Shown here: positions 2,381 to 24,722 of the stretch, one piece after another
How the letters are laid out: each line of letters begins with the position of its first letter
Position numbering within the stretch: the first letter of the stretch is position 1
From: an uncultured archaeon
GTDB taxonomy: Archaea; Nanobdellota; Nanobdellia; Woesearchaeales; CAIVOO01
Reading direction: 5' to 3'
DNA: 32,851 nucleotides
Assembly: GCA_903907555.1 (NCBI GenBank)
Contig: CAIVOO010000042.1
Span: 1 to 32,851, forward strand
Position numbers and translations under genes: made by a program
Notes under the pieces: model-generated
What the model saw: only the letters and a program-made list of their open reading frames with translations
What the model was told of the DNA's origin: nothing
Databases searched by the model: none

Positions 2381-2385
2381 GGAAA

Positions 2386-3216
2386 ATGACGCACACAAAA
2401 CTTAGGAAACTGAAAATTTCATACGGGGACAATCATGCGCTTAAAGAGATAAATGTCGACATACCTGACAAGCAGATTACAGCAATAATCGGGCCTTCCG
2501 GATGCGGAAAGACAACCCTGCTGAAAAGCATAAACAGGATAATAGAGCTTTCTGAAGGAGTCAAAGTTCGAGGAGAGGTCTTGATTGATGGGGCAAATAT
2601 CTACGGCAAAGATGCAGATGTGCTTGCGCTAAGAAAGAAAGTAGGCTTTCTTCCGCAAAGGCCGTGCCCCTTGCCGATGTCTATTTATGATAATGTTGCT
2701 TTCGGGCCGAGGATACACAGGCTGAGCGAGGAGCAGATAACAAAACAGCTTGAAAAGCAGAAAACAAACGGCCTTGTGAAAAAAGAGAAATCAAAAAAGT
2801 ATCAGGATTATTCAAAGATGGACCATCTTGTTGAGCATTATCTCAAGCTTGCCGGGCTTTGGGATGAAGTGAAAGACAGGCTGCATTCGTCAGCTTCAAA
2901 ACTTTCGATAGGACAGCAGCAGAGGCTTGCGCTTGCAAGAGTGTTAGCGATAGAGCCTGAAGTGATTCTTGCTGACGAGCCGACTTCTGCCCTTGACCCG
3001 CTTTCTGCAAAGCTTGTCGAAGAGCAGTTCAAGCTGCTGAAAAAGGATTACACAATTGTTATAGTAACTCACATTCTCCGTCAGGCAAGAAGGATTGCCG
3101 ACTATGTGATGTTCATGTATTTGGGAGAGCTGATTGAGCACGGTCCGGCAGAAAAGTTTTTCAATGCTCCGCAAAAAGATAAGACAAAAGAATATCTGTC
3201 TGGAGAGATAAGCTAA
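2386..3216 (+). CDS. pstB: Phosphate ABC transporter ATP-binding protein PstB (LSIGQ signature variant)
   Basis: Walker A 'GPSGCGKTT', signature '[34 protein letters not shown]', PstB-like '[33 protein letters not shown]'. Confidence 0.92.
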
Positions 3217-5238: not shown

Positions 5239-5304
5239 TTTATAAATATTGGGAGCAACCTTTATAAACAGGTTTATTTTCTTGTTTATGGGGGTATTTA
5301 TAAA
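5239..5304. promoter_or_regulatory. Divergent archaeal-type promoter region with three TTTATAAA boxes
   Basis: TTTATAAA at 5239-5246, 5261-5268 and 5297-5304. The first lies ~26 nt upstream of the minus-strand ATG at 5216; the third overlaps the ATG at 5304. Confidence 0.5.
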
Positions 5305-6440
5305 TGGTTGAGGGTGTTGAGATAAGTGTAGTTTTGCCTTGCAGGAATGAGGAGAAAGCAATAGGTTTCTGCATCAAAAGGATAAAGGAAGTATTTCTAA
5401 AGTACAACATTAACGGGGAAATCATAGTCTCTGATTCTTCTAAAGACAGGTCGCCAGACATTGCAAGAGAGCTTGGAGCGATTGTTGTAAAGCATGACAA
5501 GAAAGGCTATGGAATCGCTTATCTTGAAGGATTCAAGGCTGCAAAAGGAAAATACATATTGATGGCAGATGCTGATGGGACTTATGAATTCAGGGATATA
5601 CACAAATTTCTGCATTATCTAAAGCAGGGATATGATTTTGTGATAGGCGACAGGTTTGGCGAAGGCATGGATAAGGACATAATGCCCTGGACGCACAAAT
5701 ACCTAGGGAATCCCGCGCTTTCAGGAATGCTGAGATTATTTTTCGGAACAGAAGTGAAAGACGCCCACTGCGGAATCAGGGCGATTACAAGAAAAGCGCT
5801 TGACAAGCTTGACTTGAAAACAACAGGCATGGAATTCGCTTCTGAAATGGTTGTGAAAGCGATAAAAAATAGATTAAGAATAAAGCAGTTCGCAGTGCCT
5901 TACTACAAAAGGATAGGCGAATCAAAATTAGAGACGTGGACAGACGGGTGGAGGCATCTGAGATTCATGCTGCTTTATGCACCTGACTATTTGTTCATGA
6001 TTCCCGGATTATTCTTGTTTATTATCGGCATAATAGTGATGGCGTTGTTCCTCGTCGGACCGGTAAAGATTGACGGGCTTGTGCTGTACACTCACCCGAT
6101 GATTGTCGGAAGCTTCCTTACTATCGTCGGATACCAGATACTGACATTGGGAGTCTATGCAAAGACTTACGCGGTAGCTACGGGATTTGAGAAAAGGGAC
6201 AGGGTTGTTGATTTCATTGCAAAGTACATAAACTTCGAGTCAGGCATAATAATCAGCCTGCTGCTCTTGCTTCTGAGCTTTGGATTCGGCGTAAAGATAT
6301 TATTGACATGGATATCAAGCGGATATCCGGCAATGTTAAGAACCAATGATATGATTTTGATACTCACGCTGGCAATAACAGGCGTGCAGACAATGTTCTC
6401 AGCATTCTTCCTTAGCCTATTGCTAGTTGGGAAAAGATGA
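5304..6440 (+). CDS. GT2 family glycosyltransferase, dolichyl-phosphate hexose synthase-like, with C-terminal TMs
   Basis: 'ISVVLPCRNEEKAIGFCIKRIKEVF', 'IIVSDSSKDRSPDIARELGA', 'MADADGTYEF', 'DAHCGIRAITRKALDKLDLKTTGMEFASEM'; C-terminal hydrophobic helices. Confidence 0.88.
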   Translation: MVEGVEISVVLPCRNEEKAIGFCIKRIKEVFLKYNINGEIIVSDSSKDRSPDIARELGAIVVKHDKKGYGIAYLEGFKAAKGKYILMADADGTYEFRDIHKFLHYLKQGYDFVIGDRFGEGMDKDIMPWTHKYLGNPALSGMLRLFFGTEVKDAHCGIRAITRKALDKLDLKTTGMEFASEMVVKAIKNRLRIKQFAVPYYKRIGESKLETWTDGWRHLRFMLLYAPDYLFMIPGLFLFIIGIIVMALFLVGPVKIDGLVLYTHPMIVGSFLTIVGYQILTLGVYAKTYAVATGFEKRDRVVDFIAKYINFESGIIISLLLLLLSFGFGVKILLTWISSGYPAMLRTNDMILILTLAITGVQTMFSAFFLSLLLVGKR

Positions 6441-8113
6441 AAATTTTTGAGTATTTGAAAAAGAATAAAAAATTGCTGTTTTGGATAATTCTATTATTAT
6501 TAATATTTTCAATTGGATATTATTTAAGAGCTTATATTGCAATACACAAGGGTTTGGAGGGTTCTCCCTATGAAATTTTCACCAGCAAATACGAATACAA
6601 ACTTTTCAGTACAGGTTTTGGATATCATGATTATCAAGCCAAATCTTCCCGATACCCTACAAGCATTATTCTAAACTCGATTTTAAGACCTATATTCGGC
6701 AATATTTATCTACTTTATATTTTTGGAGCAATTGTAATATTCTTTTTAGGAAAGGAGATTTCTGGAAAAAACTTGGGGGGATTCTTGGCCTTTGCCCTGT
6801 ACGCAGTATCTAGTGAAAATTTGATACAATACACAAAAACGATTGGAAGTTCAGGATTATGTTATGTTTTAATCTGGTTGAGCCTTTTATTCTTACTAAG
6901 ATATCTAAGAGGCAGGAAGAACGCAGATATTGTCTTTTTTGCTATATCTTCGGTTTTAGCTCTTACAAGCTATCATAGCGGCGCTACTGCCTTTATTTTT
7001 TATTTATTCGGGATAGCTATCTCTTTAGCATATTCATCGAAAAAAGTTCCTACCAACAAGTATGTTATAGAAAAGAAACTGTTGATGGTTTTCATTGCCA
7101 TATTCTTCTTTTATTATTTGTGGATAAAAATCTTTGATCCTGGCCAACTTTTGCTAATGCAAAACTCCTTATTCGCTGCTGTAAGCACAATTTTCAAATA
7201 TCCTGTTTTAAAAGTATTATTATGTTTTACTGCGGTAGCTGTTTTTACACTTCTGATATTTCTAATCTCAAGATTGAAAATTATCGACTCAGAATATATC
7301 CCTTTATTGATGCTTATTCCCTCTGCAGTATTAATCTTCTCAAACATTGATTTTTTTGGAAAATTATTATCTTTGGGTGTTAAGAATTATTACAGTTCTT
7401 CAATGACTTTGAACAATTATCTTGCTCAGGCATTGCTCACTCACGTGTATGTAATTATTTTACTGCCTTACCTATTCAAAAGAGACCTTTCTGAAAAGTT
7501 TATCTTGTTAAGAGGCTGGTTGATAGGGTTAGTCCTCGTATTCTTGGCTTTATTAACTCAAAAATATTATGCCAGAATTTTTGATTATTCATTCCCGCTT
7601 ATGTTTGTGCTGTTCGGATTATATTGGAGTAAAAAAAGGCCTTTCAGAATCATTGTTGTGACTCTAACCATAGCTTTCTTGATTATTTCTCAATTAATGA
7701 TTTTTCATGATCCATTCACGATGAGAAGATATTATAATGTGGATGAAATGGACTCTGCCAAGAATGTCATAGGCCTTGGGTTGGACGGAGTTTTTGCCAG
7801 CGATCTAAGAACATCAGCATTATTCAGCTATCTGGATAAAAAAGATGTCTTATTCGGAAATTCCGGAGAGCCGCTTCATGATAAACTTTTCTACGAATAT
7901 CAGAATATCACTGATCTGAACGTAAATTATGTCATTCTCTCAAAATACATGAAATATATTGTTTATGATGCTAATTTTGAAACTAAACCGATTTCAGATG
8001 AAGTCTTTGGTTATTATGACTCGAATTTTGAAAAAGTTTACGATGATGAGGTTTTAAAAGTTTATAAAATCACTCATAATCCCATTAAATCATTAGGGAA
8101 TAGCACAATATGA
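6437..8113 (+). CDS. Polytopic membrane protein, probable GT-C-type glycosyltransferase
   Basis: Many TM segments; N-terminal 'YYLRAYIAIHKGLEGSP' luminal loop; short soluble C-terminus 'FEKVYDDEVLKVYKI'. ATGA overlap with both neighbours. Confidence 0.6.
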   Translation: MKIFEYLKKNKKLLFWIILLLLIFSIGYYLRAYIAIHKGLEGSPYEIFTSKYEYKLFSTGFGYHDYQAKSSRYPTSIILNSILRPIFGNIYLLYIFGAIVIFFLGKEISGKNLGGFLAFALYAVSSENLIQYTKTIGSSGLCYVLIWLSLLFLLRYLRGRKNADIVFFAISSVLALTSYHSGATAFIFYLFGIAISLAYSSKKVPTNKYVIEKKLLMVFIAIFFFYYLWIKIFDPGQLLLMQNSLFAAVSTIFKYPVLKVLLCFTAVAVFTLLIFLISRLKIIDSEYIPLLMLIPSAVLIFSNIDFFGKLLSLGVKNYYSSSMTLNNYLAQALLTHVYVIILLPYLFKRDLSEKFILLRGWLIGLVLVFLALLTQKYYARIFDYSFPLMFVLFGLYWSKKRPFRIIVVTLTIAFLIISQLMIFHDPFTMRRYYNVDEMDSAKNVIGLGLDGVFASDLRTSALFSYLDKKDVLFGNSGEPLHDKLFYEYQNITDLNVNYVILSKYMKYIVYDANFETKPISDEVFGYYDSNFEKVYDDEVLKVYKITHNPIKSLGNSTI

Positions 8114-9198
8114 AAATAGCAATATTCCACAACTTCATGGACAATATCGGCGGGGCTGAAGTAGTCACGCTCACGCTTGCAAGGGATCTAAAAGCAGATC
8201 TTTATACAACAAACATAAACCCTGACAAGATAAAAAAGATGGGATTCTCAGGAATAAGAATTATCTCGCTCGGAAAGATTCCTGTCAATGCTCCTTTCAG
8301 GCACATGCTTGCATTCCATAAATTCAGAAAATTGAATCTTGGAAAGAAGTATGATTTCTATATAATCTCAGGCGACTGGGCCATGTCAGGAGTCGTGAAC
8401 AACAAGCCGAACATGTGGTACATGCACTCGCCTCTCAACGAGCTGTGGCAATTCAAGGATTATGTCCGTGAAAAGGTTCTTGCGCCCTGGAAGAGGCCAG
8501 TATATGATATTTGGGTCATGCTGTACAGATGGCTGAATAAAAGATATCTTAGGGATGCGCAGATTCTTGTGGCCAATTCTGAAAACACAAGGAGCAGATG
8601 CAGGAAATATTACGGAAGAGATGCAGTTGTTATTAATCCGCCGATTGAAACATCAAATTATCATTACAAGCCTCACAAGGATTACTGGCTTTCTGTAAAC
8701 AGGCTTATTACGCATAAAAGGATAGAGATGCAGATGAAGGCATTCGCTAAGCTGCCCGACGAGAAATTAATCATCGTGGGAAGCTACGAGAAAGGCGCGA
8801 GGCAGTTCGAGGACTACAGGAGATATGTCGAAAGCCTCAAGCCAAAAAATGTGAAAATAATCAACTGGGTTGACCAGAAAGAGATGATTGACCTGTATGC
8901 GAACTGCAAAGGATTCATCACGACTGCAAGAGACGAGGATTTCGGGATGACGCCGATAGAGGCAATGGCTTCTGGAAAGCCTGTGATTGCAGCTAATGAA
9001 GGCGGATACAAGGAAAGCGTTATTGACGGTGTGACTGGAAAACTGATTGATAACATTAATCCAGACAAATTGGCTGAGGCGATAAAAGATATCGGGAAGA
9101 ATCCTGAAAAATACAAGGATGCCTGCATCAATCGGTCGAAGAAGTTTGACACGAAGGAATTCATAAGGAAGATCAAAGAACAGATTGGTGCAAAATGA
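8110..9198 (+). CDS. GT4 family glycosyltransferase
   Basis: 'NIGGAEVVTLTLARDL', 'VANSENTRSRCRKYYGRDAVVINPPIE', 'GFITTARDEDFGMTPIEAMASGKPVIAANEGGYKESVIDGVTGKLI'. Confidence 0.92.
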   Translation: MKIAIFHNFMDNIGGAEVVTLTLARDLKADLYTTNINPDKIKKMGFSGIRIISLGKIPVNAPFRHMLAFHKFRKLNLGKKYDFYIISGDWAMSGVVNNKPNMWYMHSPLNELWQFKDYVREKVLAPWKRPVYDIWVMLYRWLNKRYLRDAQILVANSENTRSRCRKYYGRDAVVINPPIETSNYHYKPHKDYWLSVNRLITHKRIEMQMKAFAKLPDEKLIIVGSYEKGARQFEDYRRYVESLKPKNVKIINWVDQKEMIDLYANCKGFITTARDEDFGMTPIEAMASGKPVIAANEGGYKESVIDGVTGKLIDNINPDKLAEAIKDIGKNPEKYKDACINRSKKFDTKEFIRKIKEQIGAK

Positions 9199-11180: not shown

Positions 11181-12299
11181 ATGAAAGAAATAGAAATTAC
11201 TCAATTTCCTGAAAAACTTCCTGGAAGCTTTTGGGGCATCACAACATTTTACAATCCTCAAAGGTACAAGAACAAGATAGAGAATTACAGGAAATTCAGG
11301 AACTCGATCAAAAAGCAAGGATTGAAGCTGCTGACTGTGGAGCTGGCTTTTGGAAATGACGATTTCGAGCTTAAGCATAATGAAGCAGATAAAATCGTGA
11401 GAGTCAGGTGCAATTCTGTGATGTGGCAGAAGGAAAGGCTTCTGAATATCGGCCTGAAAAATCTGCCTGAAGACTGCGATAAGATTGCATGGCTTGATGC
11501 AGACATCATTTTCTTGAATAAGAATTGGGTGAGCGAAACATCAAAACTGCTTGAAGATTACGCTATTGTGCAGCCGTTCTCCTGCTGCGTGAGGCTTCCG
11601 AAAGGAAATCCGAAGCTTAATCTTGCAGTCCTGGAAGAAGGAAGGTTGGAGGGAGAAAAGCAGAAGGGTGTTGTTTTCGCTTTTATAAGTTCTCACGGCC
11701 TGAAGTCATTTAATGATTTTGTCAAGTTTCATCCAGGCTTTGCGTGGGCCGGCAGAAAGAAGATTTTTGATGAGCTCGGGTTTTATGACAAGCTGGTGGC
11801 TTCCACGTCATCAGATACATTGATGGCGTTCTCTTTCTTGAAAAATTTGTTCAAATTCAACTTAAGGATATATCATGGAAAAATAAAAAGCGATTCAGAA
11901 GCATGGTCTGGCAAGATGTATGAAAAAACGTCTGGAAGCGTTTACTATGATGACGGCACAGTATTGCACCTTTTTCACGGCTCGATGAACAACAGGCTTT
12001 ATGGCGAAGTTGACAAGCTGATGTCTGAATGTAATTACGATCCAAATAAGGACATCAAGCTGAATAAGAGCTGCTGCTGGGAGTGGACAGGAAACAACAA
12101 GGCGCTTGAGGCAAAAGTCAAGAACTATTTCAAAACCCGGAATGAGGAAGGCAAATTGCACAGGGATTTTATGAATGTCTTTTTTGACGACAAAAGGAAA
12201 ATATTGCTGAGAATCGACAGGCAGATTGGCTTGTTCGGAAGATTTCTGAAACGTCATTCTCCGCGATTGTATTTCTTACTGAAGCGGTTCAAAAAATGA
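11181..12299 (+). CDS. Putative GT-A-fold glycosyltransferase with C-terminal shared tail
   Basis: 'FWGITTFYNPQRYKNKIENYRKFRNSIKKQGLKLLTVELAFG', 'MWQKERLLNIGLKNLPEDCDKIAWLDADIIFL' (DxD); ends 'IDRQIGLFGRFLKRHSPRLYFLLKRFKK'. Confidence 0.65.
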   Translation: MKEIEITQFPEKLPGSFWGITTFYNPQRYKNKIENYRKFRNSIKKQGLKLLTVELAFGNDDFELKHNEADKIVRVRCNSVMWQKERLLNIGLKNLPEDCDKIAWLDADIIFLNKNWVSETSKLLEDYAIVQPFSCCVRLPKGNPKLNLAVLEEGRLEGEKQKGVVFAFISSHGLKSFNDFVKFHPGFAWAGRKKIFDELGFYDKLVASTSSDTLMAFSFLKNLFKFNLRIYHGKIKSDSEAWSGKMYEKTSGSVYYDDGTVLHLFHGSMNNRLYGEVDKLMSECNYDPNKDIKLNKSCCWEWTGNNKALEAKVKNYFKTRNEEGKLHRDFMNVFFDDKRKILLRIDRQIGLFGRFLKRHSPRLYFLLKRFKK

Positions 12300-14326
12300 A
12301 AATGAATACCAAACCAAAAATAAAAATCAATTTCATGTGCCAGCCTCCTGCAAATTATTATATACAATATTTTTTCATGAACCTTCTGAAAAAAGATTAT
12401 GATATCGTCCTTTCAAATAAACCAGATTATGTCATATATTCCGAATTTGACGGTAAGAATTTACACCCTGTCGCTTATAAAAGTGAGTGCGTGAAAAGCA
12501 TCGACACAAAAATGGGTTTGGTTGGACATTTTATAAAAAAATGCAGTTTTCCGCTTTACTCTGTGCTCAAAAAAATCTCCTTGCCAGTAACAAGCAGGAT
12601 TAAGAACAATCAACAGGTTGTGCCGCTGAAAATGCCAAAATTATACGGACCTTTCAAAAAGATTTTCTATGCTATCGAAAACTGCAGGCCTGAAATGGAC
12701 AAATGCAACTGGGCTTTCACTTTTGACTATGATGAGGAACTTAATGATCCAAAGCATTTGAGAATCCCTTTATACGCCATTGTTGTGGACGAGGAGCTTG
12801 TCAAGCACAATGTCAATGCGGAAAAAATTACTGCAGAGAAAAATAAATTCTGCAATTTCGTATACTCGAACAATGTGGAGTTCAGGAATAATTTTTTCCA
12901 TAAACTGAATAAATACAAAAAAGTGGAATCATGGGGAAAGTGCTGCAATAACATGGGCAAGCTTCTTCCAGGAGGCAATTGGGGCAAAAGGCATAATAAT
13001 GCAAGCGTGAAGTTTTATAAGAAAAAAGATTTTCTTAAACAATACAAATTTACAATCGCTTTCGAGAATAGTTCGTACCCGGGATATACCACAGAAAAAA
13101 TTACTGAGCCGATGCTTGCAAACAGCATACCTATTTATTGGGGGAATCCTCTTGTAAGCAGAGATTTTAATACAAAAAGCTTTCTGAACTATCACGACTT
13201 TGAAAGCCAGGCTAGAAATAAATTTCCTGATTTTATTTTGAAAATTCCTGGAATCAAGTCAGTTATTAATAAGATAATAGCTGAAAAAGCCACAAGTAAC
13301 CTCATAAAGAGGATTATAGAGATAGATAACAATGATGAGCTGTATGAAGAGTACCTCAAGCAGCCATGGTACAACAATAATAAGCCATCGAAATACGTCG
13401 ACAAGAAGATTTTGATAAAAAGGTTTCATGAAATCTTTGATAAAAATCTTAAGATTAAGAAAATTGATTCTGGAAGCCTGAATGCCAAATTTTATGTTAG
13501 AAATAATGTTGACAAATATATTATTGATGAGATATGGAAAAATAATGAATACAGCATGTTTCCTGATTTTGACATTAAAAAAGATGATGTGGTTATAGAT
13601 ATAGGAGCCAATGTTGGGGCGTTTACGGTTTATGCCTCGCTGCTCGCAAAAGAAGTTTTTGCTTTTGAGCCTGAAAAAGAGAATTATGAAATGCTGAGAA
13701 AAAACATCCAGCTGAACAGTTTAAAGAATGTTAATCTATTCAATTCAGTGGTATCCAGCGTCTCTGGCAGGATAAAGCTCTATCTTACCAATATACCTTG
13801 CTCGTACGGAATTTTTAAGATGGGCAATTCGCTGGCTGATGCTGATGTAAAGTCCGTTACATTGAAGGAAATATTTGACAGCAACAAGATTACCCGCTGC
13901 AATTTACTGAAAATAGACACAGAAGGTTCTGAATATGACATCCTGGCTTCATTGCCTAAGGAGTATTTCGGTCTGATAGACAGGATTGTTCTGGAATACC
14001 ACGATGTATTAATGGCTGATGTGTCAAAAAAATTAATAAAGTTTTTATCGCAGAATAATTATGACATAAAAACTGTGCCAACAAATGATGGCTTAGGCTT
14101 GATATATGCCAGAAGGATTGCCAATTCGCACAGTAAGTTTTATTATCCTTGTGCGCTGTCCAGGTTTGCTTGTCAAAAATACAGTCTAACATTTGATAAT
14201 TATTTTAGCGACTTTTATAAAAATAAAGTGCGAAAAAATGTTGATAGGATTATCGGAATAATAGGATTATCAATAAAAAAACTACATCCGAAATTATACC
14301 ATCAACTAAAAAAACTCAAGGATTGA
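12296..14326 (+). CDS. Bifunctional GT10 (fucosyltransferase-like) / FkbM family methyltransferase, with C-terminal shared tail
   Basis: N-terminal GT10 motif 'FTIAFENSSYPGYTTEKITEPMLANSIPIYWGNPLVSRDFN'. C-terminal FkbM 'DDVVIDIGANVGAFTVYASLLAKEVFAFEPEKENYEMLRKNI...LLKIDTEGSEYDIL'. Ends 'VDRIIGIIGLSIKKLHPKLYHQLKKLKD'. Confidence 0.87.
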   Translation: MKMNTKPKIKINFMCQPPANYYIQYFFMNLLKKDYDIVLSNKPDYVIYSEFDGKNLHPVAYKSECVKSIDTKMGLVGHFIKKCSFPLYSVLKKISLPVTSRIKNNQQVVPLKMPKLYGPFKKIFYAIENCRPEMDKCNWAFTFDYDEELNDPKHLRIPLYAIVVDEELVKHNVNAEKITAEKNKFCNFVYSNNVEFRNNFFHKLNKYKKVESWGKCCNNMGKLLPGGNWGKRHNNASVKFYKKKDFLKQYKFTIAFENSSYPGYTTEKITEPMLANSIPIYWGNPLVSRDFNTKSFLNYHDFESQARNKFPDFILKIPGIKSVINKIIAEKATSNLIKRIIEIDNNDELYEEYLKQPWYNNNKPSKYVDKKILIKRFHEIFDKNLKIKKIDSGSLNAKFYVRNNVDKYIIDEIWKNNEYSMFPDFDIKKDDVVIDIGANVGAFTVYASLLAKEVFAFEPEKENYEMLRKNIQLNSLKNVNLFNSVVSSVSGRIKLYLTNIPCSYGIFKMGNSLADADVKSVTLKEIFDSNKITRCNLLKIDTEGSEYDILASLPKEYFGLIDRIVLEYHDVLMADVSKKLIKFLSQNNYDIKTVPTNDGLGLIYARRIANSHSKFYYPCALSRFACQKYSLTFDNYFSDFYKNKVRKNVDRIIGIIGLSIKKLHPKLYHQLKKLKD

Positions 14327-14327
14327 A

Positions 14328-15320
14328 ATGAAAAAAAATCTTATAGTGACATTGGCAAATGAACCTTTCTTGGATCAGGCTAAACAAGTTTTTTCCAGCA
14401 TCTATTGGAATGCAGGCTGGAAAGGGGACTACATGCTTCTGGCGCATGATGTTCCTGAAAGAAAGCTGGCGTGGTTCAGGGAGAAAGGCATTTTAGTGAG
14501 AAAATGCAAGCCTATATTCAAGAATGCAGGAATGCCATTGGAAGTTTTACTTAGCAAATATTATCTTTTCAAACCCGAGTTCAAGAAATGGAATGCAGTG
14601 GTTTTTCTTGACGCGGATACAATGGTGAATGCCTCCCTTGACGGGCTTACAAAGGTCAGGGGATTTGCAGCCCCTGAAAGCGAGATGTTTCTGGAAAAAA
14701 TAAAAGGCCCTTTCCTGATGAGGCTGATGAACATCGATAAGGGCATATTTGAAGAATTAAAAAAAGAATACAATCTCAACAAAAGGCCTTTCTGCTCTGG
14801 CGTGATGGCTTTCAACACAGAAATAATCAAGAAGGACACATTCAAAAAATTGATCGGGCTTTACAAGAAGTACGGGATGCTTAGCGAGTGCTATGACGAA
14901 ATGGCGCTAAACCTGCTTTTTTACAGAAATTTCAAGAAAGTCCCTGACGCATACAATATTTATCCTTTCTTCTTCACATCCCGAGGAATTGAAAAAGAAA
15001 ATATGTTCGGGGCAATACTGCATTTTGTAATTGAAAAGCCCTGGATTCCTGGTGCAATATTCTACAAGGAGTGGAAGCAAAGCCTTGACAGGGCGGATTT
15101 GATAAATCTTAAAAACAGGCCGAAAGCCGCTAAAGTCTTGAGCAAAGAGGAGATTGAAAAATGTGGAAAACTTTACAACAGCATGCTCCACAAACCAAGA
15201 AACCTGAAAAAGATATTTGCAGATTCTAAAATGACAATCGACAGGCATATGGGCCTATTCGGCATTTATCTGAAGTACAGGCACAACTGGCTGTACAGAC
15301 TGCTTAAGAGGCTGAAATGA
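14328..15320 (+). CDS. GT8-like glycosyltransferase (paralogue 1), with C-terminal shared tail
   Basis: 'MKKNLIVTLANEPFLDQAKQVFSSIYWNAGWKGDYMLLAHD', 'VVFLDADTMVNASLDGL', 'RPFCSGVMAFNTEIIKK'. Paralogous to the next gene. Confidence 0.75.
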   Translation: MKKNLIVTLANEPFLDQAKQVFSSIYWNAGWKGDYMLLAHDVPERKLAWFREKGILVRKCKPIFKNAGMPLEVLLSKYYLFKPEFKKWNAVVFLDADTMVNASLDGLTKVRGFAAPESEMFLEKIKGPFLMRLMNIDKGIFEELKKEYNLNKRPFCSGVMAFNTEIIKKDTFKKLIGLYKKYGMLSECYDEMALNLLFYRNFKKVPDAYNIYPFFFTSRGIEKENMFGAILHFVIEKPWIPGAIFYKEWKQSLDRADLINLKNRPKAAKVLSKEEIEKCGKLYNSMLHKPRNLKKIFADSKMTIDRHMGLFGIYLKYRHNWLYRLLKRLK

Positions 15321-16285
15321 AAAAAAGCCTTTTAGTAACATTGGCTGATGAACATCAGATTGATCAGGCTAAGCAGCTGTTTTCTTCTGTGTATTGGAAT
15401 TCGGGCTGGAAAGGGGATTACATGCTGCTTGCATACGGAATCCCTGAAAAAAAACTAAGATGGTTCAGAAAAAAAGGCATTTTGATAAAGAAATGCAGAC
15501 CTATTTTCAGGAATGAAAATAGATTCCGCTCAATAGTGACCTGCAAGTTCTACATGTTTGTTTTGGAATTCAAAAAATGGCAGAATGTAGTATTTCTCGA
15601 TTCTGATATCATTGTCAGAGCATCACTTGATGAACTTGCCAAAGTCAAAGGGTTTGCAGCTGTTGAAGAGAAAATCTTGGCGGATCAATTTATCTCGTTT
15701 TCCGGATCAGAACAAGATAATGTCTTATTGAGAAATTTGAAAGAAAATTATGATTTAGGCGAGATGCGATTCAATGCAGGAGTCGTGGCATTCAATACAA
15801 AAATAATAAATAAAAAAGTTTTCCCTGAATTGAAAAGACTGTTCAATTTTTACAAAAGGATAAATCTCTTGAATGACCAATCGATACTTAATTTGGTTTT
15901 CTACAAGAAATGGCAGAGGCTGCCTCTTTGCTACAATGTCTCGCCTTATCTGCTAGCTCATCCTTTTTTCATCAGAAATATAAAAAAAATTCCGGGTATA
16001 ATCTTGCATTTCATGAGCAAACGAAAGCCTTGGGATAAAGGGGACCCATTCAATAAGGAATGGAGGCGCAATCTTGAGATTGCGGAATTCATCGACGTGA
16101 ACAAGCCGGTGCCTGCAAGAGATTTTGATAAAAAAGCGATAATGAAAATTTCCAGACGCGTAAAAATAAAAATGCTTACTTATACTCCTGTAAGAATCAT
16201 GGATAGGTGGGCGGGATTATTCGGACTTGTGTTGAAGGAAAGATGCCCGAAGATTTATGAAAAACTGAAAAGATTGGCAAATTAA
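15317..16285 (+). CDS. GT8-like glycosyltransferase (paralogue 2), with C-terminal shared tail
   Basis: 'MKKSLLVTLADEHQIDQAKQLFSSVYWNSGWKGDYMLLAYG', 'VVFLDSDIIVRASLDEL', 'MRFNAGVVAFNTKIINKK'; ends 'MDRWAGLFGLVLKERCPKIYEKLKRLAN'. Confidence 0.75.
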   Translation: MKKSLLVTLADEHQIDQAKQLFSSVYWNSGWKGDYMLLAYGIPEKKLRWFRKKGILIKKCRPIFRNENRFRSIVTCKFYMFVLEFKKWQNVVFLDSDIIVRASLDELAKVKGFAAVEEKILADQFISFSGSEQDNVLLRNLKENYDLGEMRFNAGVVAFNTKIINKKVFPELKRLFNFYKRINLLNDQSILNLVFYKKWQRLPLCYNVSPYLLAHPFFIRNIKKIPGIILHFMSKRKPWDKGDPFNKEWRRNLEIAEFIDVNKPVPARDFDKKAIMKISRRVKIKMLTYTPVRIMDRWAGLFGLVLKERCPKIYEKLKRLAN

Positions 16286-16286
16286 A

Positions 16287-17228
16287 ATGAATAGCTTATT
16301 CAGCAATAAAAAGAAGAAGATAGTACTGTCGCCTCATTTTGACGATTTTGCTATTTCACTAGGGGGACTTGCGTTCAAATGGTCTGCGAATGAATGTGAC
16401 GTAGAGGATGTGGTGGTATTTTCCAACTCGGAATTTGCACCTGGTTACAACATCGCTTCTGAAAAAAGGAAAAAGATAATTTCTAAATTAAGATTTCAGG
16501 AGGAGATGAATGCAACTAAAAAAATAGGCAACATTAAAATAAGATTATGCAACCAGGATGATGCTCCGATAAGAAGGCATCATGAATTGTACGGTTCATA
16601 TAATATCACTAGAAGAAAGGACAGAGAAGCAATAAATAATATATATGAATTAATCAATACATTGTTGTTTTCCAGCGATATACAATTATTTGTTCCGCTT
16701 GCAGTAAAAGAGCATGTAGACCATCTGATTGTCAGGAATGTAGTGATTAATTCTATATTAAAAAATAAAAATAAGATGAAAGCGCAGGTATTCTTTTACG
16801 AAGACCTGCCATATGCTGCGTCAGCCAATAAAGATGAGCAGAAAAAGATTGGCAGATTCATTAAAGATAATCAATTGGTTCCAATAACATATCCGATCGA
16901 TTTGGGTTCTAAATTAAAGCTTTTAGATAATTATAAATCTCAACCAATACAAGGTTATTATGACGCAATCAACCGAAGGGCTGAACAGATTCAAGAGCAA
17001 TCAAGCAAAAAAACACCTTCTGAAAAAGTATTCATGTTCTCGCCGCAGAATGCTGTTTTTAAGCATAACAGATTGTATCCCTTAGAAACTTCCTTCCTGC
17101 TAAATAAATCATGCTCGGCAAAAAGCAATGTGCAGCAATTTATTGATAAGAAAATAGGTGAAACAGGCATATTCCTGAAAAATATTTCTCCAGAATTATA
17201 CTATGCGTTAAAGCGGGTGATAAAATGA
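16287..17228 (+). CDS. PIG-L/LmbE family deacetylase with C-terminal shared tail
   Basis: 'IVLSPHFDDFAISLGGLAFKW' (PHxDD...GG), 'LFVPLAVKEHVDHLIVRN' (HxDH); ends 'IDKKIGETGIFLKNISPELYYALKRVIK'. Confidence 0.85.
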   Translation: MNSLFSNKKKKIVLSPHFDDFAISLGGLAFKWSANECDVEDVVVFSNSEFAPGYNIASEKRKKIISKLRFQEEMNATKKIGNIKIRLCNQDDAPIRRHHELYGSYNITRRKDREAINNIYELINTLLFSSDIQLFVPLAVKEHVDHLIVRNVVINSILKNKNKMKAQVFFYEDLPYAASANKDEQKKIGRFIKDNQLVPITYPIDLGSKLKLLDNYKSQPIQGYYDAINRRAEQIQEQSSKKTPSEKVFMFSPQNAVFKHNRLYPLETSFLLNKSCSAKSNVQQFIDKKIGETGIFLKNISPELYYALKRVIK

Positions 17229-18358
17229 AAATCTGCATGTTATCGCACAGCTACCCTCCAGAACTTGAAAGAAGCGGGATTAGCACATATACTCATATTA
17301 TTGCAAACGAACTTGCAAATAAACATGAAGTTACAGTAATTGCAGAATCTGCTGGCGGAGAAAAAGATTACATAGAAAACAATGTCCGTGTTATTAGAAT
17401 AAATCCGAAAATCATAAGGCTTCCAATCTTTAACATCTTTTTCGGAAACTTCATCCATAAACTATGCTACAGCTACCAGGTTTACAGGAAAATTAAATCC
17501 TTGAAAATTCCTTTTGACATAATACACGCAGGTGAATGGAGTTTTGAAGCATTATTTCTGACATTCTGCAAAAATACAAATATTGTGACAACAATTCATT
17601 CTCCGACAATCCTGACTCGGCCCTGGGAGGAGAAAGGCATCCAGATGCAGGACAGGTTGATAAATCTCTTGGAAAAAACCCAGACAAAAAGAAGCAAAGC
17701 GATTATTTCCCCTTCCAGCTTTCTTAGAAAAATTGTCTCAGAAGAATGGGATATTCCTCTTCATAGTATACAGATTATCAGCAATCCGACCAAAGAGATT
17801 GTGCTGGCAAAGAGAAAAGTTCCCTACAAAAATTTCATGGTTTATTATGGAAGAGTTGAGAAACTGAAGGGTGTTTTAGTACTTCTGAAAGTGCTGGATG
17901 GTGTTTTTGAGTTGCACCCTGACCTAAAAATGCTGTTTATAGGAACAGACCGCATTAATATAAAAAAATATTTAAATGAATCGCGCCATAAAAAAAATAT
18001 AATCTTATTGCCCCATCTTAGCCAAGAAGATTTGTTCCCGATAGTTTCAAAAGCCAGATTGGTTATCCTGCCTTCATTATTTGAAAACTTCGGGCTCACC
18101 TGCCTTGAGGCGATGGAATTAGGCAGGGTAGTTATTGCAACACGCAAAACAGGATTTGAGGAGATAATACAGGACGGTATTTCAGGATTTTTGGTGGAAC
18201 CAGGCAATGCAAAAGAATTGCAAGAAAAAATAATTTCCTGCTTGGAAAGAAAGGATCTCGGCATGATAAGCAAAAATGCACAAAAAAGAGCAGAAGATTT
18301 TGATGTTAAAATCATTGCTGAACAATTAGAAAAGTTGTATAAACAAGTACAAAAATGA
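17225..18358 (+). CDS. GT4 family glycosyltransferase
   Basis: 'MLSHSYPPELERSGISTYTHIIANEL', 'MVYYGRVEKLKGVLVLLKVL', 'LVILPSLFENFGLTCLEAMELGRVVIATRKTGFEEIIQDGISGFLVEPGN'. Confidence 0.93.
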   Translation: MKICMLSHSYPPELERSGISTYTHIIANELANKHEVTVIAESAGGEKDYIENNVRVIRINPKIIRLPIFNIFFGNFIHKLCYSYQVYRKIKSLKIPFDIIHAGEWSFEALFLTFCKNTNIVTTIHSPTILTRPWEEKGIQMQDRLINLLEKTQTKRSKAIISPSSFLRKIVSEEWDIPLHSIQIISNPTKEIVLAKRKVPYKNFMVYYGRVEKLKGVLVLLKVLDGVFELHPDLKMLFIGTDRINIKKYLNESRHKKNIILLPHLSQEDLFPIVSKARLVILPSLFENFGLTCLEAMELGRVVIATRKTGFEEIIQDGISGFLVEPGNAKELQEKIISCLERKDLGMISKNAQKRAEDFDVKIIAEQLEKLYKQVQK

Positions 18359-19527
18359 AACACGAAACAATAGTCTTAATCCCGAACTACAATGGGAGGC
18401 AGCATCTGGATGAATGCCTGTCCTCTTTGCACGAGCAGACATATCGTGATTTTAAAATAGTTTTTATTGACGACTTCTCCAAGGATAATAGCATATTGTT
18501 TGTAAGAACAAATTTTCCAGATGTTGATGTTCTTGCTTTGCCTGAAAACATGAATTTCGCAAGGGGAGTGAATATCGGAATGAAATATGCTATTGACAAG
18601 TATTCCCCGAAATATATTGCTGTCCTGAATAATGATACTAAAGCTGACAAGGATTGGCTGAAGCATCTGGTGGCTGCAATAGATTCTAAAGAAAGGATTG
18701 CAGCGGTAGCTTCCAACATGCTCTTCTATGATAACCACAGAATCATCAACAGCCAGGGCGGAACCTATAATTTCTTTGGAGAGGGGCATGACATTAACAT
18801 GTATAAAAATCGAAGTGAAGTCAAAGAGGCAAGAAGCAGTGTGCTGAGCACTTGCTGGGGAGCCACACTCATAAAAACTGAATACATAAAAAACATAGGT
18901 TATCTTGACGGCAGGTACACTGCTTATTTCGAGGATTTGGACTGGGGGTGGAGAGCAAATTTGTTTGGCTACAAGTTAATCTTCGAACCTAAAGCAATAG
19001 TTTATCATAAAGGAAGCTCATCCTGGAAAAATCAGGAGATAAGAAAGTACTATCTTTGCTTAAGGAACAGCCTTTGCACAATGCTCAAGAATTATGAGTT
19101 CAGGTCTCTTGTAAAAATATTGCCTGTAATTTTTTCCAACTATCTGTTTTTTTACATCGGGAGACTTTTTTCAAGCAGCAGGAAAAATCCTGATGAATTG
19201 TCTTTTTATAAAAGATTAAGATACTCCCTGATTCCTGTGCGGTTGCTGCTCTGGAATGCAGGAAACTTGCCTAAAACACTATATCTGAGAAGGTCAATCC
19301 AATCCAGAAGAAAAATATCTGATGCTGAAATATTCAGGTTTTTCACTCCTGTGAAACACAGGCTTTTATCTGCCAAACCCGAGTCTCATTTTATGAAATA
19401 TTCTCGGTTCTCTCCGCCTAACCTGTTTCTTTTCTTCTCAGGTTGCATAGGAAAGACAATCAAGGCATTTTCACCAAAAGCATACCGCAAGCTGAAAAAG
19501 CACGAGCATGTCTGGGTCAGAAAATAA
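18355..19527 (+). CDS. GT2 family glycosyltransferase (rhamnosyltransferase-like), degenerate C-terminal shared tail
   Basis: 'VLIPNYNGRQHLDECLSSLHEQTYRDFKIVFIDDFSKDNS', 'VLNNDTKADKDWL', 'YFEDLDWGWRANLFGYKL'; near-terminal 'CIGKTIKAFSPKAYRKLKKH'. Confidence 0.92.
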   Translation: MKHETIVLIPNYNGRQHLDECLSSLHEQTYRDFKIVFIDDFSKDNSILFVRTNFPDVDVLALPENMNFARGVNIGMKYAIDKYSPKYIAVLNNDTKADKDWLKHLVAAIDSKERIAAVASNMLFYDNHRIINSQGGTYNFFGEGHDINMYKNRSEVKEARSSVLSTCWGATLIKTEYIKNIGYLDGRYTAYFEDLDWGWRANLFGYKLIFEPKAIVYHKGSSSWKNQEIRKYYLCLRNSLCTMLKNYEFRSLVKILPVIFSNYLFFYIGRLFSSSRKNPDELSFYKRLRYSLIPVRLLLWNAGNLPKTLYLRRSIQSRRKISDAEIFRFFTPVKHRLLSAKPESHFMKYSRFSPPNLFLFFSGCIGKTIKAFSPKAYRKLKKHEHVWVRK

Positions 19528-19529
19528 GA

Positions 19530-20258
19530 TTATGAGCTTTTCAGATAACTTGATGATACTTCTTTGCTGCTGCCGATCTTCACAACCATTCCGTTGTCCA
19601 TCCATATGGCCCTGTCGCAGTATTTCTCTATCATTCCAAGGCTGTGGCTTACCAACAAAACTGTTGTTCCTTTCTTAACCAGCTCTTTTATCCTTTCCGA
19701 GCTCTTTGTCCTGAATTTCTCGTCCCCGACTTCAAAGACTTCGTCTATGAGAAGTATGTCCGGGTTGGAATGGATTGCTATCGCAAATGCAAGCCTCTGC
19801 TTCATTCCTTCCGAGAACTGGAATACTTTTGTGTTTACATATTCTTTTAATTCTGAGAATTCGACTATTGAGTTGAACCTCTGCTTTATCATCCTGTTTT
19901 CAACGCCAAGCAGGGAGCAGCATAAAAAGATATTGTCTCTCATCGTAAGCCTTTCTTGCATTCCTATATTCAGGTTGATGAGTGGTATCATCCTGCCGTT
20001 TATCTTTACAGAGCCTTCATCTTTCTCATAAATGCCTGCGATTGTCCTTAGGAGAGTGCTTTTTCCGCTTCCATTCTTCCCTATGATTCCTACAACTTCG
20101 CCTTCTTTTGCTGTGAATGAGATGTTTTTCAGCACCTGGATTTTTTTCTTTGTGTCCCTGTCAGAAAACAATGATAAGATCCTTGACAGAGCAGAGATGT
20201 TTTTTCTTATGCCTATCTTGAAAGTTTTCGATACATTGTTTATGATTATCCTATCCAT
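19530..20258 (-). CDS. Polysaccharide ABC exporter ATP-binding protein (Wzt/TagH-like, short form)
   Basis: Walker A 'GIIGKNGSGKSTLLRTIAGI', 'FSEGMKQRLAFAIAIHSNPDILLIDEVFEVGDEKF', typical of Wzt-type ATPases. 242 aa, so no C-terminal carbohydrate-binding domain. Confidence 0.9.
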   Translation of the reverse strand: MDRIIINNVSKTFKIGIRKNISALSRILSLFSDRDTKKKIQVLKNISFTAKEGEVVGIIGKNGSGKSTLLRTIAGIYEKDEGSVKINGRMIPLINLNIGMQERLTMRDNIFLCCSLLGVENRMIKQRFNSIVEFSELKEYVNTKVFQFSEGMKQRLAFAIAIHSNPDILLIDEVFEVGDEKFRTKSSERIKELVKKGTTVLLVSHSLGMIEKYCDRAIWMDNGMVVKIGSSKEVSSSYLKSS

Positions 20259-21008
20259 TTATACCATCTCTGCGAATTTGTTTTTCAGCTTATTGAATAT
20301 AAGGTATCCGAAGACAAATGATACTGCTGTGAAACCAACCAGTATGAGCACTGAACTCAAATCAGGAAGTTTGGAGTATATCAGAAGGTCTCTTGAAATG
20401 CTGATTATGTGATACATTGGGTTGAATAAATTTATCTTGTAAAGCATTCCGTTCGCTTCTGTCACGACATAGAATATCGGAGTCCCGAACCACCAGATTC
20501 TCGACGCAAACATCCAGATGTTGTTCAAATCCCTAAAATATATCATTATTGAAGACAGTGCGAAGCACAGCCCTAATGTGAACAAGAACATCATTAACAG
20601 CACAATAAGGAACAAAGGCAGTAAATATGGTGTTATGCCGAAGAACAACAAGAATATTATGAACACTAAAAGCTCAAAGAAATGTGATATCAGCGCCATA
20701 AGCACATTTGATATGATCAGTGATTCCCTGCTGAAATTCAAAGATTTTATTAGATGCGAGTTTTGTATGATGTTCTCCATCGATGCGCCTGTCGCCAATG
20801 TTATGAAATTGAACTGTATCAATCCTAATAAGAGATAAAGCGGGTAATATTCAACTCCTGTACCTAAATTCTTTGAGAATATGAAATACAGCAGGACAAA
20901 CATCAGCAGGGGATTGAGCAGATACCAGGCTATTCCGAGGTAGCTTCCTTCATTTCTCAGCTTGAAGCTTGTCTTTGTTAATTGGATTATCAAATCTAGG
21001 TTTTTCAC
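20259..21008 (-). CDS. Polysaccharide ABC exporter permease (Wzm/ABC-2 type)
   Basis: 'LIIQLTKTSFKLRNEGSYLGIAWYLLNPLLMFVLLYFIFS'; ABC-2 hydrophobic profile; stop abuts the ATPase start (TAA/ATG). Confidence 0.88.
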   Translation of the reverse strand: MKNLDLIIQLTKTSFKLRNEGSYLGIAWYLLNPLLMFVLLYFIFSKNLGTGVEYYPLYLLLGLIQFNFITLATGASMENIIQNSHLIKSLNFSRESLIISNVLMALISHFFELLVFIIFLLFFGITPYLLPLFLIVLLMMFLFTLGLCFALSSIMIYFRDLNNIWMFASRIWWFGTPIFYVVTEANGMLYKINLFNPMYHIISISRDLLIYSKLPDLSSVLILVGFTAVSFVFGYLIFNKLKNKFAEMV

Positions 21009-21287: not shown

Positions 21288-24200
21288 ATGAAAAAGACTA
21301 TAGTTTTAATGTTAGTTCTGTTTGTGTTCTGTGCAGGAATGGCATTTGCATTGCCGGGTCCCAGACCTGTAGGCACGTGCGGAGGCGAATTGCGATGCGA
21401 CTGCGGAGAGGCAGTTACGAGCAATGTAACCCTCAGCGATAATATTGAATGTACTACAGATAATTACGGACTATATGCCTATGGGAATGACATTACTATC
21501 AACTGTAATGGCCATAGCATTACCACTCCGTATGGCGACCTTGCAGGTATTATTATTCCAGGACCTTACGGCGATGTTCATGTAACCGATTGTAATATAC
21601 AAGGATTCGATAAAGGAGTATATACAACAAATTCTGACGGAAATCATATAGAAGAGAATACAATATCCGGAGTAAATTACGGAGTCTACCTTCTAACTTC
21701 TGCTTATGGAGAAGTAACTGAAAACGACATAATTGATACAGCTAATAGCGGCATCTATTTAGACGGCAGAGGTGGCGCCTCTTATAACACAATAAGCGGG
21801 AATACAATCAATTATTCTGCTCAGGACTGCAGCAGTAGCGGCGGTCCTAGTTGCGGCGCTATAGAGCTGAACTACGAAGATAACTGTGTGATAGAAGACA
21901 ATCACATCTACAGAAGCGACAATAATGGAGTCACATTATATGAATCAAACCATAATCAAATACTTGACAACACTCTTGTTGATATCAATAGCTGGGGCAT
22001 AAGATTAGCAGCCCACAATCCAAACGTTGGCGGCGATAATACAGTAAATGGAAATACCTTAACTGGAAGTGAAATAAGAGTCGCAACTGAAAGGAACACA
22101 ATTAATAATAATGTACTTGATGGACAAGGTGACAGCTGGAATGGCATCTACTTAGGCGAGAGCAATTGGATTGACACAGAGGGTAATACTTTTGATGGCA
22201 ATGATATTTCAGGATATTACAAAGGTGTGTATGCAGGCGGCGTAGACAGCTTCATCATGTCAGATTCACAAATACATGGCAACTGTGAAGGAATAAGACT
22301 GGAAAGCGCTGGATTAAGCGCTTATGGTGATGTCGTGCAAAACAATGATCCAGACAATCTTGAGTTCTGCAATGATATGGATAGGAAGACTGGAATTTAT
22401 GTAGACTCATCATCAACATTGAATTTTTATGGCGGAACAATAAGCAATAACGGGGATTACGGAATCTTTTCAATTTTAGGAAGCAAAGTTGACTGGCAGG
22501 CAGATGGTTCTGCGACATGCGCAAACAATGCGCTTTATCTCGGAGATTATCCTTCCGGAGACCATTCTGTTGACAGAGATGTTGACAGGGAAAACTGTCC
22601 AATCTGGCCGGCGGAAGCAGAATATAAGTGCGGGGATGTTATCACAGAGGATGTGACATTAACAAATCCGATAGTTTGCCAAGGCATGTACACTTATGGC
22701 CTTGTGGCTGGAGCAAACAACATAACAATTAACTGCGACGGACAGGAAGTATCAGGGGATGGTGGAAGTGGCAGCGGAATATTCGTCAATGGCTACGGCG
22801 GAGTTACTATTGAGAACTGTGACATCTCTGGATTCAGCTATGGTATAGATGTTTGGGATGGGTTGCCAGGCGTAACAATGCAAAACAACCATATCCACAG
22901 CAACTCGTATGGAGTGTACTCAAGAGAAAATGAAAGGACACACGTTTTGGAAAATACGTTTGAGTCTAATTCGATAGGTGTCTATTTCCTGGCAACTGCA
23001 TACGGAGACATAATTGCCAATACAATAACAGACGGCAACATAGGCGTTTATTTAGTAGAAGGTGTGTTGCCTGGTTCTTACAACACAGTAGAAGGAAACA
23101 CAATAGATCCTTGGTCAAGTGGAACCGGAATAAAAATCAATGACGACAATAATCAGATTATAAGAAACACCGTAGACTGTCGATGGAGATCATCCGGAGG
23201 ATACGGAATATATCTGGCAGGGGAAGACAATACATTTTCAGGGAATGATGTCTCCAACTGCGGCAAAGGGTTCGTTGCTGATTCAGTTGACAATTTTACA
23301 ATAAGCGGAGACAACTACCATGATAACAATGAAGGAGCTTTTATCAATGGCGCATCCGGAACAATTGTCGACACAGACTTTAGTGACAATGGCGGAGCAG
23401 AGACAGGACTGAGTCTCAACAATTCAGAAATTGAACTGGTGAATGGAAATTTCATAAACAACGGAGACTGGGGTGTTGATGCGTACGGAAATGGCAACAC
23501 TCTGCATTGGGCTTTGACTGATGATGTTGTGTGCTCTAATAATGACATACAGTTGAGCGGCTGGATTGTCCCGTTCGGCGGAACTTTAGACCATAGCGAT
23601 AATTGTGATGTCTATGTTAATGGGGTACTTTTGGGAGAAAATCAGTCTGGAATTTATGTAGAGGATATAGACACTTCGGGAGACAATGAATACACTTTCG
23701 GCAATCCAGATTTCGGCATAGAAGGTGAGATACATTCAACAGACGGTTCTACAGGAACTCTGACTGTGAATTTCTACAGCAAGCCTCCTGAAGGCGGAAC
23801 TAAGTTCAAGCTTGAAGGATTAGGAATTTGGGTTGATGTGAATATCTCAGGTGACATTGTAAATGGTTTGGATTATTGGATTTTGAGGATCTACTATACT
23901 GATGAGCAGTTGAGGGCTGCTGGTGTGACAACGAGTTCTCTGAAAATTACGTGGTATAATCCTGCTACACTGAAGTGGGAGACTTTGGACACTACTGTGA
24001 ATAAGGCAGAGCATTATGTTGAAGCCAGAATAAATCACTTCAGCTTGTTTGGTGTTGGCGGAACTTCAGGCGGTGGTGGCGGTGGAGGTTCTGGTGGTGG
24101 TACAACAGCTTCATATGGCGGTACTACTTTGACTGGCTCGAACACTACTGTGGAGAATTTCATTATGGAGACTTGCCTGTCGCAGGATCAGACTGTGTAC

Positions 24201-24722
24201 TTCTATATTCAGAAGCTTAAGCAGATGATGACTATGACGAACTTGGATACTAATGAGTTGAGGCTGAACAACAATCCGGTAACTATAGCGCAGAATGCCA
24301 CAGAGTACTATGATGTGAACAACAACGGCGTGCCAGATACTAAGATTGTAGGTTCCAGGAAGCTGGCTACTAAGAGCTGCTTCACGATATACGAGCTGAA
24401 TGAAGGCATGTACACAAAGAAAGAGGAAGTGAAGAAAGAAGAGGAAGCAGCTGCTAAGGCGGCAGAGGAAGCAGCAAAGGCAGCAGCGCAGCCGACTGCA
24501 GAAGCTAAGGCTCCTGAAGTCAAGGAAGTGCCTGTCGCAGGAACCAACTGGAAGACTATATTATCATGGGGAGTTCCTGTGCTGGTGATAGTCGCTTTGG
24601 CAGGGCTGTATATGTATTTCAGGCCTAAGAGCCCTTCAGCAAGTTATGTGCCGACGAAGACTTATGCGCCAAGTGCGGAAGTTAAGGCGCCGGCGAGGCA
24701 TCACAAGCCAAAGAGACACTAA
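21288..24722 (+). CDS. Secreted parallel beta-helix (NosD-like) surface protein with stalk, C-terminal TM and basic tail
   Basis: Signal peptide 'MKKTIVLMLVLFVFCAGMAFA'; repeated beta-helix rungs ('NTISGNTINYS', 'GVYLLTSAYGEVTENDI'); 'ARINHFSLFGV' beta domain; Gly-rich linker; Glu/Ala/Lys stalk; TM 'VPVLVIVALAGLYMYF'; 'RHHKPKRH' tail. Confidence 0.88.
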   Translation: MKKTIVLMLVLFVFCAGMAFALPGPRPVGTCGGELRCDCGEAVTSNVTLSDNIECTTDNYGLYAYGNDITINCNGHSITTPYGDLAGIIIPGPYGDVHVTDCNIQGFDKGVYTTNSDGNHIEENTISGVNYGVYLLTSAYGEVTENDIIDTANSGIYLDGRGGASYNTISGNTINYSAQDCSSSGGPSCGAIELNYEDNCVIEDNHIYRSDNNGVTLYESNHNQILDNTLVDINSWGIRLAAHNPNVGGDNTVNGNTLTGSEIRVATERNTINNNVLDGQGDSWNGIYLGESNWIDTEGNTFDGNDISGYYKGVYAGGVDSFIMSDSQIHGNCEGIRLESAGLSAYGDVVQNNDPDNLEFCNDMDRKTGIYVDSSSTLNFYGGTISNNGDYGIFSILGSKVDWQADGSATCANNALYLGDYPSGDHSVDRDVDRENCPIWPAEAEYKCGDVITEDVTLTNPIVCQGMYTYGLVAGANNITINCDGQEVSGDGGSGSGIFVNGYGGVTIENCDISGFSYGIDVWDGLPGVTMQNNHIHSNSYGVYSRENERTHVLENTFESNSIGVYFLATAYGDIIANTITDGNIGVYLVEGVLPGSYNTVEGNTIDPWSSGTGIKINDDNNQIIRNTVDCRWRSSGGYGIYLAGEDNTFSGNDVSNCGKGFVADSVDNFTISGDNYHDNNEGAFINGASGTIVDTDFSDNGGAETGLSLNNSEIELVNGNFINNGDWGVDAYGNGNTLHWALTDDVVCSNNDIQLSGWIVPFGGTLDHSDNCDVYVNGVLLGENQSGIYVEDIDTSGDNEYTFGNPDFGIEGEIHSTDGSTGTLTVNFYSKPPEGGTKFKLEGLGIWVDVNISGDIVNGLDYWILRIYYTDEQLRAAGVTTSSLKITWYNPATLKWETLDTTVNKAEHYVEARINHFSLFGVGGTSGGGGGGGSGGGTTASYGGTTLTGSNTTVENFIMETCLSQDQTVYFYIQKLKQMMTMTNLDTNELRLNNNPVTIAQNATEYYDVNNNGVPDTKIVGSRKLATKSCFTIYELNEGMYTKKEEVKKEEEAAAKAAEEAAKAAAQPTAEAKAPEVKEVPVAGTNWKTILSWGVPVLVIVALAGLYMYFRPKSPSASYVPTKTYAPSAEVKAPARHHKPKRH

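Follow-up and report, generated by a model that had tools for sequence, protein, structure and literature searches.

We analyzed a stretch of DNA of 32,851 nucleotides from an uncultured archaeon of the order Woesearchaeales (assembly GCA_903907555.1, contig CAIVOO010000042.1, positions 1 to 32,851), referred to here as the window. Five consecutive genes for glycan enzymes in the window encode products with a common, ungapped tail of 28 residues, and each of these five copies runs right up to the stop codon. A further copy lies inside one of the same proteins, and a degenerate copy lies near the end of a glycosyltransferase (GT) encoded downstream. The genes and tail copies are as follows, with E values for copies 1 to 5 from leave-one-out searches with hidden Markov models (HMMs).

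11181..12299, + strand: GTx, a GT-A-like enzyme of a conserved family whose homologues also occur in other tailed loci
12213..12296, + strand: tail copy 1, C-terminus of GTx, IDRQIGLFGRFLKRHSPRLYFLLKRFKK (E 1.1e-9)
12296..14326, + strand: fusion of a GT10 fucosyltransferase-like domain and an FkbM methyltransferase (PF00852, PF18025, PF05050)
12500..12583, + strand: internal tail copy, IDTKMGLVGHFIKKCSFPLYSVLKKISL, residues 69-96 of the GT10-FkbM protein
14240..14323, + strand: tail copy 2, C-terminus of the GT10-FkbM protein (E 2.9e-5)
14328..15320, + strand: GT8 glycosyltransferase (PF01501, E 5e-12)
15237..15317, + strand: tail copy 3, C-terminus of the first GT8 (E 3.6e-7)
15317..16285, + strand: GT8 glycosyltransferase (PF01501, E 3e-18)
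16199..16282, + strand: tail copy 4, C-terminus of the second GT8 (E 3.0e-6)
16287..17228, + strand: PIG-L family deacetylase (PF02585)
17142..17225, + strand: tail copy 5, C-terminus of the PIG-L deacetylase (E 5.7e-5)
17225..18358, + strand: GT4 glycosyltransferase (PF00534), untailed, between tailed genes
18355..19527, + strand: GT2 glycosyltransferase (PF00535) with a degenerate tail
about 19441..19500, + strand: degenerate tail copy, close to the C-terminal end of this GT2

In the leave-one-out searches, HMMs built from four tails each found the omitted fifth among the 685 six-frame open reading frames (ORFs) of the window, where the best unrelated ORF had E >0.1. The GT2 tail was marginal with models of the five tails (E 0.0026 to 0.7) and reached E 2.3e-5 over the whole genome with a 34-sequence profile from which it was excluded. 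The internal copy scored E 7.8e-6 to 2.8e-3 with HMMs that did not contain it; compared with Helicobacter pylori FucT, it is an insertion in the GT10 N-terminal domain, ahead of FucT residue 84. A first-pass annotation of the window had claimed six tails. Five of them stand at the positions it quoted, the GT2 tail is weaker and draws its support from the broader profile, and the internal copy, a seventh, had been overlooked. A search of the whole 1.18-Mb genome found no tail copy outside this one locus.

The catalytic domains named in that annotation were recovered with Pfam, except in the first gene (11181-12299), for which neither Pfam nor NCBIfam gave a match. The two GT8 proteins scored 46.3 and 66.7 bits against PF01501 (gathering cutoff 24.3), and the match stops near residue 240, before the tail. 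PF08437 (Glyco_transf_8C) was matched neither by these two proteins and the other tailed GT8s (E up to 0.01) nor by any tail alone (E up to 1). In an AlphaFold model of the second GT8 (15317-16285), the fold matches WbbM, GlyE, LgtC, and glycogenin. The GTx family is GT-A-like with a WLDADI motif, and it has no Pfam or NCBIfam model; its homologues (in L087, L093, L146, L148, and L149) are often fused to methyltransferase or GT2 domains. For the tail itself, 34 copies compared with Pfam gave only isolated, single-member chance matches, and no NCBIfam model extended to the tail in a scan of the tailed proteins, in line with the first-pass annotation, which did not recognize it as a named domain. 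Searching the PDB with the tail profile gave only chance matches, among constructs that may be truncated, and we found no description of such a shared tail in the open-access literature.

Beyond the window, we collected 44 tailed proteins from 23 loci in DPANN archaea, Patescibacteria, Bacteroidota, and Cloacimonadota; most or all of the carrier genomes are metagenome-derived. A narrow profile applied to 359 genomes of the same order identified two further real carriers: G082, in which a tailed GT8 gene lies beside Wzt, and G354, in which two adjacent tailed genes (GT2-like and FUT8/NodZ-like) lie beside Wzm/Wzt. Scanning contigs with the GT8 proteins reached Pacearchaeota, Nanoarchaeota, Patescibacteria, Bacteroidota, Cloacimonadota, Omnitrophota, and Deltaproteobacteria, and many of the contigs reached bear the same tail, often on several successive genes. 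Whole-genome profile searches gave no tail match in the Omnitrophota or deltaproteobacterial genomes reached in this way, and they placed all the tails of a genome in a single glycan locus in nearly every genome. When we surveyed larger groups with the tail profile, carriers amounted to 6 of 121 genomes in a Pacearchaeota order (4 new), 3 of 74 in Cloacimonadota (2 new), 2 of 287 in the Patescibacteria phylum (1 new), and 1 of 197 in the Bacteroidota phylum, the last being the seed genome. The searches of viral contigs, phages, and plasmids found no tail carrier. The rare and patchy distribution of the tail is as expected of a laterally moving element. Across 1,995 genome scans (some genomes repeated), there were almost no significant tail matches outside glycan loci, and the best reversed-sequence control had E 0.02. 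One match in G169 (E 1e-4) is a TauE-like permease, which we took to be a chance hit.

Most tails (39 of 44) end within 18 residues of the C-terminus, and the remaining 5 lie between two enzyme domains. Their hosts include GT8, GTx, GT10+FkbM, GT2, PF10111-like GT2, and FUT8/NodZ-like enzymes, as well as FkbM alone, Methyltransf_24, Methyltransf_11-GTx, PIG-L, and radical SAM/SPASM proteins. Among GT8 homologues in tailed loci, 29 of 32 carry the tail. Internal copies were seen in these arrangements:

L090: GT8-tail-tail-GNAT
L148: GT8-tail-sulfotransferase
L146: GTx-tail-GT2
L149: GTx-tail-methyltransferase (a weak tail)

The proposal that the tail is an independent module appended to unrelated catalytic domains is borne out by its recurrence in other genomes on at least 10 enzyme types. 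It is spread over many families rather than forming the normal C-terminus of one GT family, and the HMM matches are C-terminal or between fused domains, in glycan loci, and on varied folds. In the same loci, we found no tail on any of 19 GT4 proteins, 11 GT2 proteins bearing transmembrane (TM) segments, or 31 Wzm/Wzt proteins, a result expected if only soluble enzymes without membrane-binding parts of their own need a tail. One Wzm/Wzt locus (L145, 8488-9552) encodes a tailed protein of 355 residues without a Pfam match, a candidate new glycan enzyme recognizable by its tail alone.

The 28 columns of the tail align without gaps. Across 38 tails, G6 is present in 36, G9 in 37, and Y20 in all 38, and P17, K13, L23, and K24 are almost as constant. 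The mean net charge is +5.8, compared to +1.4 in other C-termini, and the hydrophobic moment of residues 1 to 15 exceeds that of shuffled versions in 38 of 38 tails, with a helical periodicity near 100 degrees. These measurements confirm the amphipathic, basic character that had been suggested for the tail. The most conserved direction of the first helix (D2, G6, G9, K13) lies 126 degrees off the hydrophobic direction of that helix, and the corresponding angle in the second helix is 80 degrees. The AlphaFold model of the window GT8, built from 33 GT8 sequences (predicted local distance difference test [pLDDT] score 92.9, about 90 in the tail), contains a helix at residues 272-309, a break at residue 310, before the conserved proline, and a helix at residues 311-321. 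The amphipathic hairpin of the first-pass annotation is therefore upheld in its amphipathicity and not established as a hairpin, because the model consists of a long helix, a one-residue break, and a second helix. A model of GTx was poor (pLDDT 51, 7 sequences; helix 340-359, break, helix 361-371), and we do not rely on it. Mean identity among the GT8 proteins was 44% in the catalytic part, 18% in the linker, and 32% in the tail.

The copies in the window are only 43 to 58% identical in DNA, and at identical residues their codons agree in 66 of 180 cases, compared to 68.5 expected from codon usage. Agreement of synonymous codons at chance level rules out recent DNA duplication of the tail and indicates that the peptide is old in these genes and maintained by selection on the protein; going by these codon comparisons, the tail is under long purifying selection. 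Tails that sit on different folds within one locus resemble each other (similarity 0.454) as much as do GT8 tails taken from separate loci (0.400), and the locus itself has a slight effect (permutation p ~0.02); the sequence of the tail is thus not tied to the catalytic fold. GT8 may be the original host, because nearly all GT8 homologues in tailed loci carry the tail and because deltaproteobacterial GT8 homologues (L032, L033, L039-L041, and L043) end in a degenerate version below the profile threshold, such as LGVFLKNNYPQIYKLQRKLRN. A separate variant occurs in a Bacteroidales locus (L089), where a B12-binding radical SAM protein and two GT8s (1621-3135, 6776-7795, and 7817-8812, - strand) all carry the version ...SWxxxxxxKrxxPxxYxxLKK, a pattern that would fit joint divergence of the tag in this locus.

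The tailed genes of the window are followed by a putative glycan exporter and preceded by untailed genes of the same locus (5304..9198), whose homologues recur, likewise untailed, in other tailed loci:

5304-6440, + strand: TM-bearing GT2 (Pfam), untailed
6437-8113, + strand: multi-TM protein, untailed
8110-9198, + strand: GT4 (Pfam), untailed
19530-20258, - strand: Wzt-like ABC ATPase (PF00005), part of the putative exporter
20259-21008, - strand: Wzm-like ABC-2 permease (PF01061), part of the putative exporter

Wzm, with or without Wzt, was present in 15 of the 23 tailed loci. The exporter genes adjoin tailed genes in many loci, and the two often converge, as they do in the window; because several contigs are short, a missing exporter is not always informative. 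The window's Wzm type occurs in 25 of 196 genomes of the order, and these include all 3 tailed genomes (hypergeometric p ~0.002). Most Wzm/Wzt loci in relatives are untailed, and the tailed loci of Cloacimonadota contain a Wzx-type flippase (PF01943), with no Wzm seen. These two observations rule out docking specific to Wzm/Wzt as the whole explanation, and they tie the tail to the assembly of glycans, not to any single exporter.

We lean toward the interpretation that the tail is a portable tag that brings soluble enzymes to a membrane-bound site of glycan assembly and that makes a second, specific contact through its conserved face, a role that we consider somewhat better than an even bet. 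The tail would be a discrete targeting module, transferable between enzymes, with the structure of an amphipathic, cationic helix-kink-helix of about 15 plus 11 residues with its kink at a conserved S/N-P, joined by a variable linker to an otherwise soluble enzyme. Its hydrophobic and lysine-rich surface would rest against the cytoplasmic side of the membrane, next to the polyprenyl-linked glycan. The second contact would be made by the conserved stripe (D2, G6, G9, and K13, with P17, Y20, and K24), which would either hold one helix to the other or bind a common partner or a second tail. Acquiring the tail would bring an enzyme into a single membrane-bound assembly line, the product of which would be exported through Wzm/Wzt or, in the case of Cloacimonadota, apparently through a Wzx-type flippase. 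The tail is charged and amphipathic, it is not found on membrane-spanning enzymes, and it can stand either at the ends of proteins or between domains, all of which fits recruitment to the membrane; the strict G6/G9/Y20 face suggests the additional contact, within the tail or with a partner. Three points weigh against this interpretation. Invariant G6, G9, and Y20 exceed the needs of simple membrane binding, some soluble enzymes of these loci (a radical SAM protein and GT4s) presumably manage without a tail, and GT8 homologues were the route to about half of the loci, so the host counts are biased.

The same conserved residues would also suit a pure protein docking tag that binds one scaffold or other tails, with the membrane playing no direct part. 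The near-invariance of G6, G9, Y20, K13, and K24, the separation of a conserved face from the hydrophobic one, the locus effect in tail similarity, and the confinement of tails to one locus per genome all speak for such a tag, the logic of which resembles that of the glycogenin C-terminal segment on glycogen synthase or of encapsulation peptides of bacterial microcompartments. However, a common partner gene was not identified, since some tailed loci lack Wzm/Wzt and relatives mostly have Wzm/Wzt loci without tails, and the strong positive charge and amphipathicity suit a membrane surface; we regard docking without the membrane as unlikely, though well short of negligible. A wider form of the docking idea, in which a previously undescribed, horizontally spread address tag would specifically dock GTs, methyltransferases, deacetylases, sulfotransferases, and radical SAM enzymes onto a common partner or each other in both archaea and bacteria, so that an enzyme acquiring the 28 residues would be drawn into glycan assembly, is one that we entertain tentatively, as a minority possibility. 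It is distinctly improbable that the tail is instead a C-terminal structural element of an ancient GT8 subfamily that was moved by chance fusion or exchange within operons and has no targeting function of its own. The frequency of the tail on GT8 homologues and the degenerate deltaproteobacterial version fit that history, but the linker between catalytic part and tail is variable, the tail occurs on at least 10 other enzyme types in several phyla as well as inside a GT10 domain and between fused domains, and each copy is under selection. Chance likeness among generic Lys/Leu-rich amphipathic C-termini is the least credible explanation and close to refuted by the profile statistics. The second half of the tail (PxLYxxLKK) is compositionally simple, and the permease gave one chance match, but the leave-one-out E values, the weak reversed-sequence control, the ungapped columns with their near-invariant residues, and the scarcity of matches beyond glycan loci argue against it.

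How soluble enzymes of surface-glycan synthesis stay together at the membrane has mostly been studied case by case. If a single homologous tag on unrelated enzymes does this, it would provide a general, testable rule, it would allow new glycan-modifying enzymes to be found by the tail alone (e.g., GTx and the untyped L145 protein), and it would give access to the cell surfaces of DPANN archaea and Patescibacteria that have not been cultured.

Other genes of the window lie outside the run of glycan enzymes. Two large putative surface proteins (21288-24722 and 25933-29526; beta-helix and subtilase) adjoin the glycan locus. Their C-terminal regions match over about 80 residues (BLASTP E 4e-7), beyond which come a hydrophobic segment and then a basic tail; the two proteins possibly have a surface-anchoring C-terminus in common. 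An EF-Tu/CysN-like GTPase (3218-4459) is encoded directly behind a Pst phosphate transporter operon, and a single protein of 566 residues (30723-32423, - strand) combines dihydroorotate dehydrogenase with a PyrK-like electron-transfer part (DHO_dh and DHODB Fe-S domains).

Several known systems resemble the tail in part. Helicobacter pylori FucT (GT10) and LgtC (GT8) have basic and hydrophobic amphipathic C-termini that are thought to bind the membrane, and they belong to the same catalytic families as two of the tail hosts; however, the tail profile detected no homology to them in the PDB, where constructs may be truncated. Glycogenin, a eukaryotic enzyme of GT8 fold, likewise ends in a helical segment that serves for docking and is preceded by a variable linker, but it is a single enzyme, and its target is glycogen synthase. 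Encapsulation peptides are short amphipathic helices borne on linkers, at the termini or between the domains of unrelated enzymes, and, like the proposed tag, they gather a pathway. They do so by binding microcompartment shell proteins, whereas the setting of the tail is a membrane glycan pathway; no shell domain was present among the window proteins scanned with Pfam, a scan that covered most of the window's genes.

The closest parallels come from glycans exported by Wzm/Wzt, which are assembled on a polyprenyl lipid on the cytoplasmic side of the membrane (PMC11231755, PMC6286764, PMC10148158). KpsC, the capsule Kdo transferase, has a C-terminal amphipathic helix for membrane association (PMC10148158). 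It is similar to the tail in being C-terminal, linker-tethered, and amphipathic, on a soluble enzyme that acts on a membrane-bound glycolipid in an ABC-exported pathway. The KpsC helix, however, belongs to one enzyme family, and it is not described as having a sequence common to unrelated enzymes, the G6/G9/Y20 pattern, or internal copies. The O9a/O3 terminator WbdD, of a Wzm/Wzt pathway, has a membrane-associated C-terminal amphipathic helix and also recruits WbdA (PMC11231755, PMC6286764). Its C-terminal region thereby combines membrane association and partner recruitment, the two functions that we propose for the tail, in a single protein with a coiled-coil ruler rather than in a tag common to many enzymes. 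The tail has the predicted feature of a KpsC/WbdD-type anchor, an amphipathic, basic terminal helix. Membrane tails on single enzymes were already known, and the new element is a homologous tag on many unrelated pathway enzymes in archaea and bacteria.

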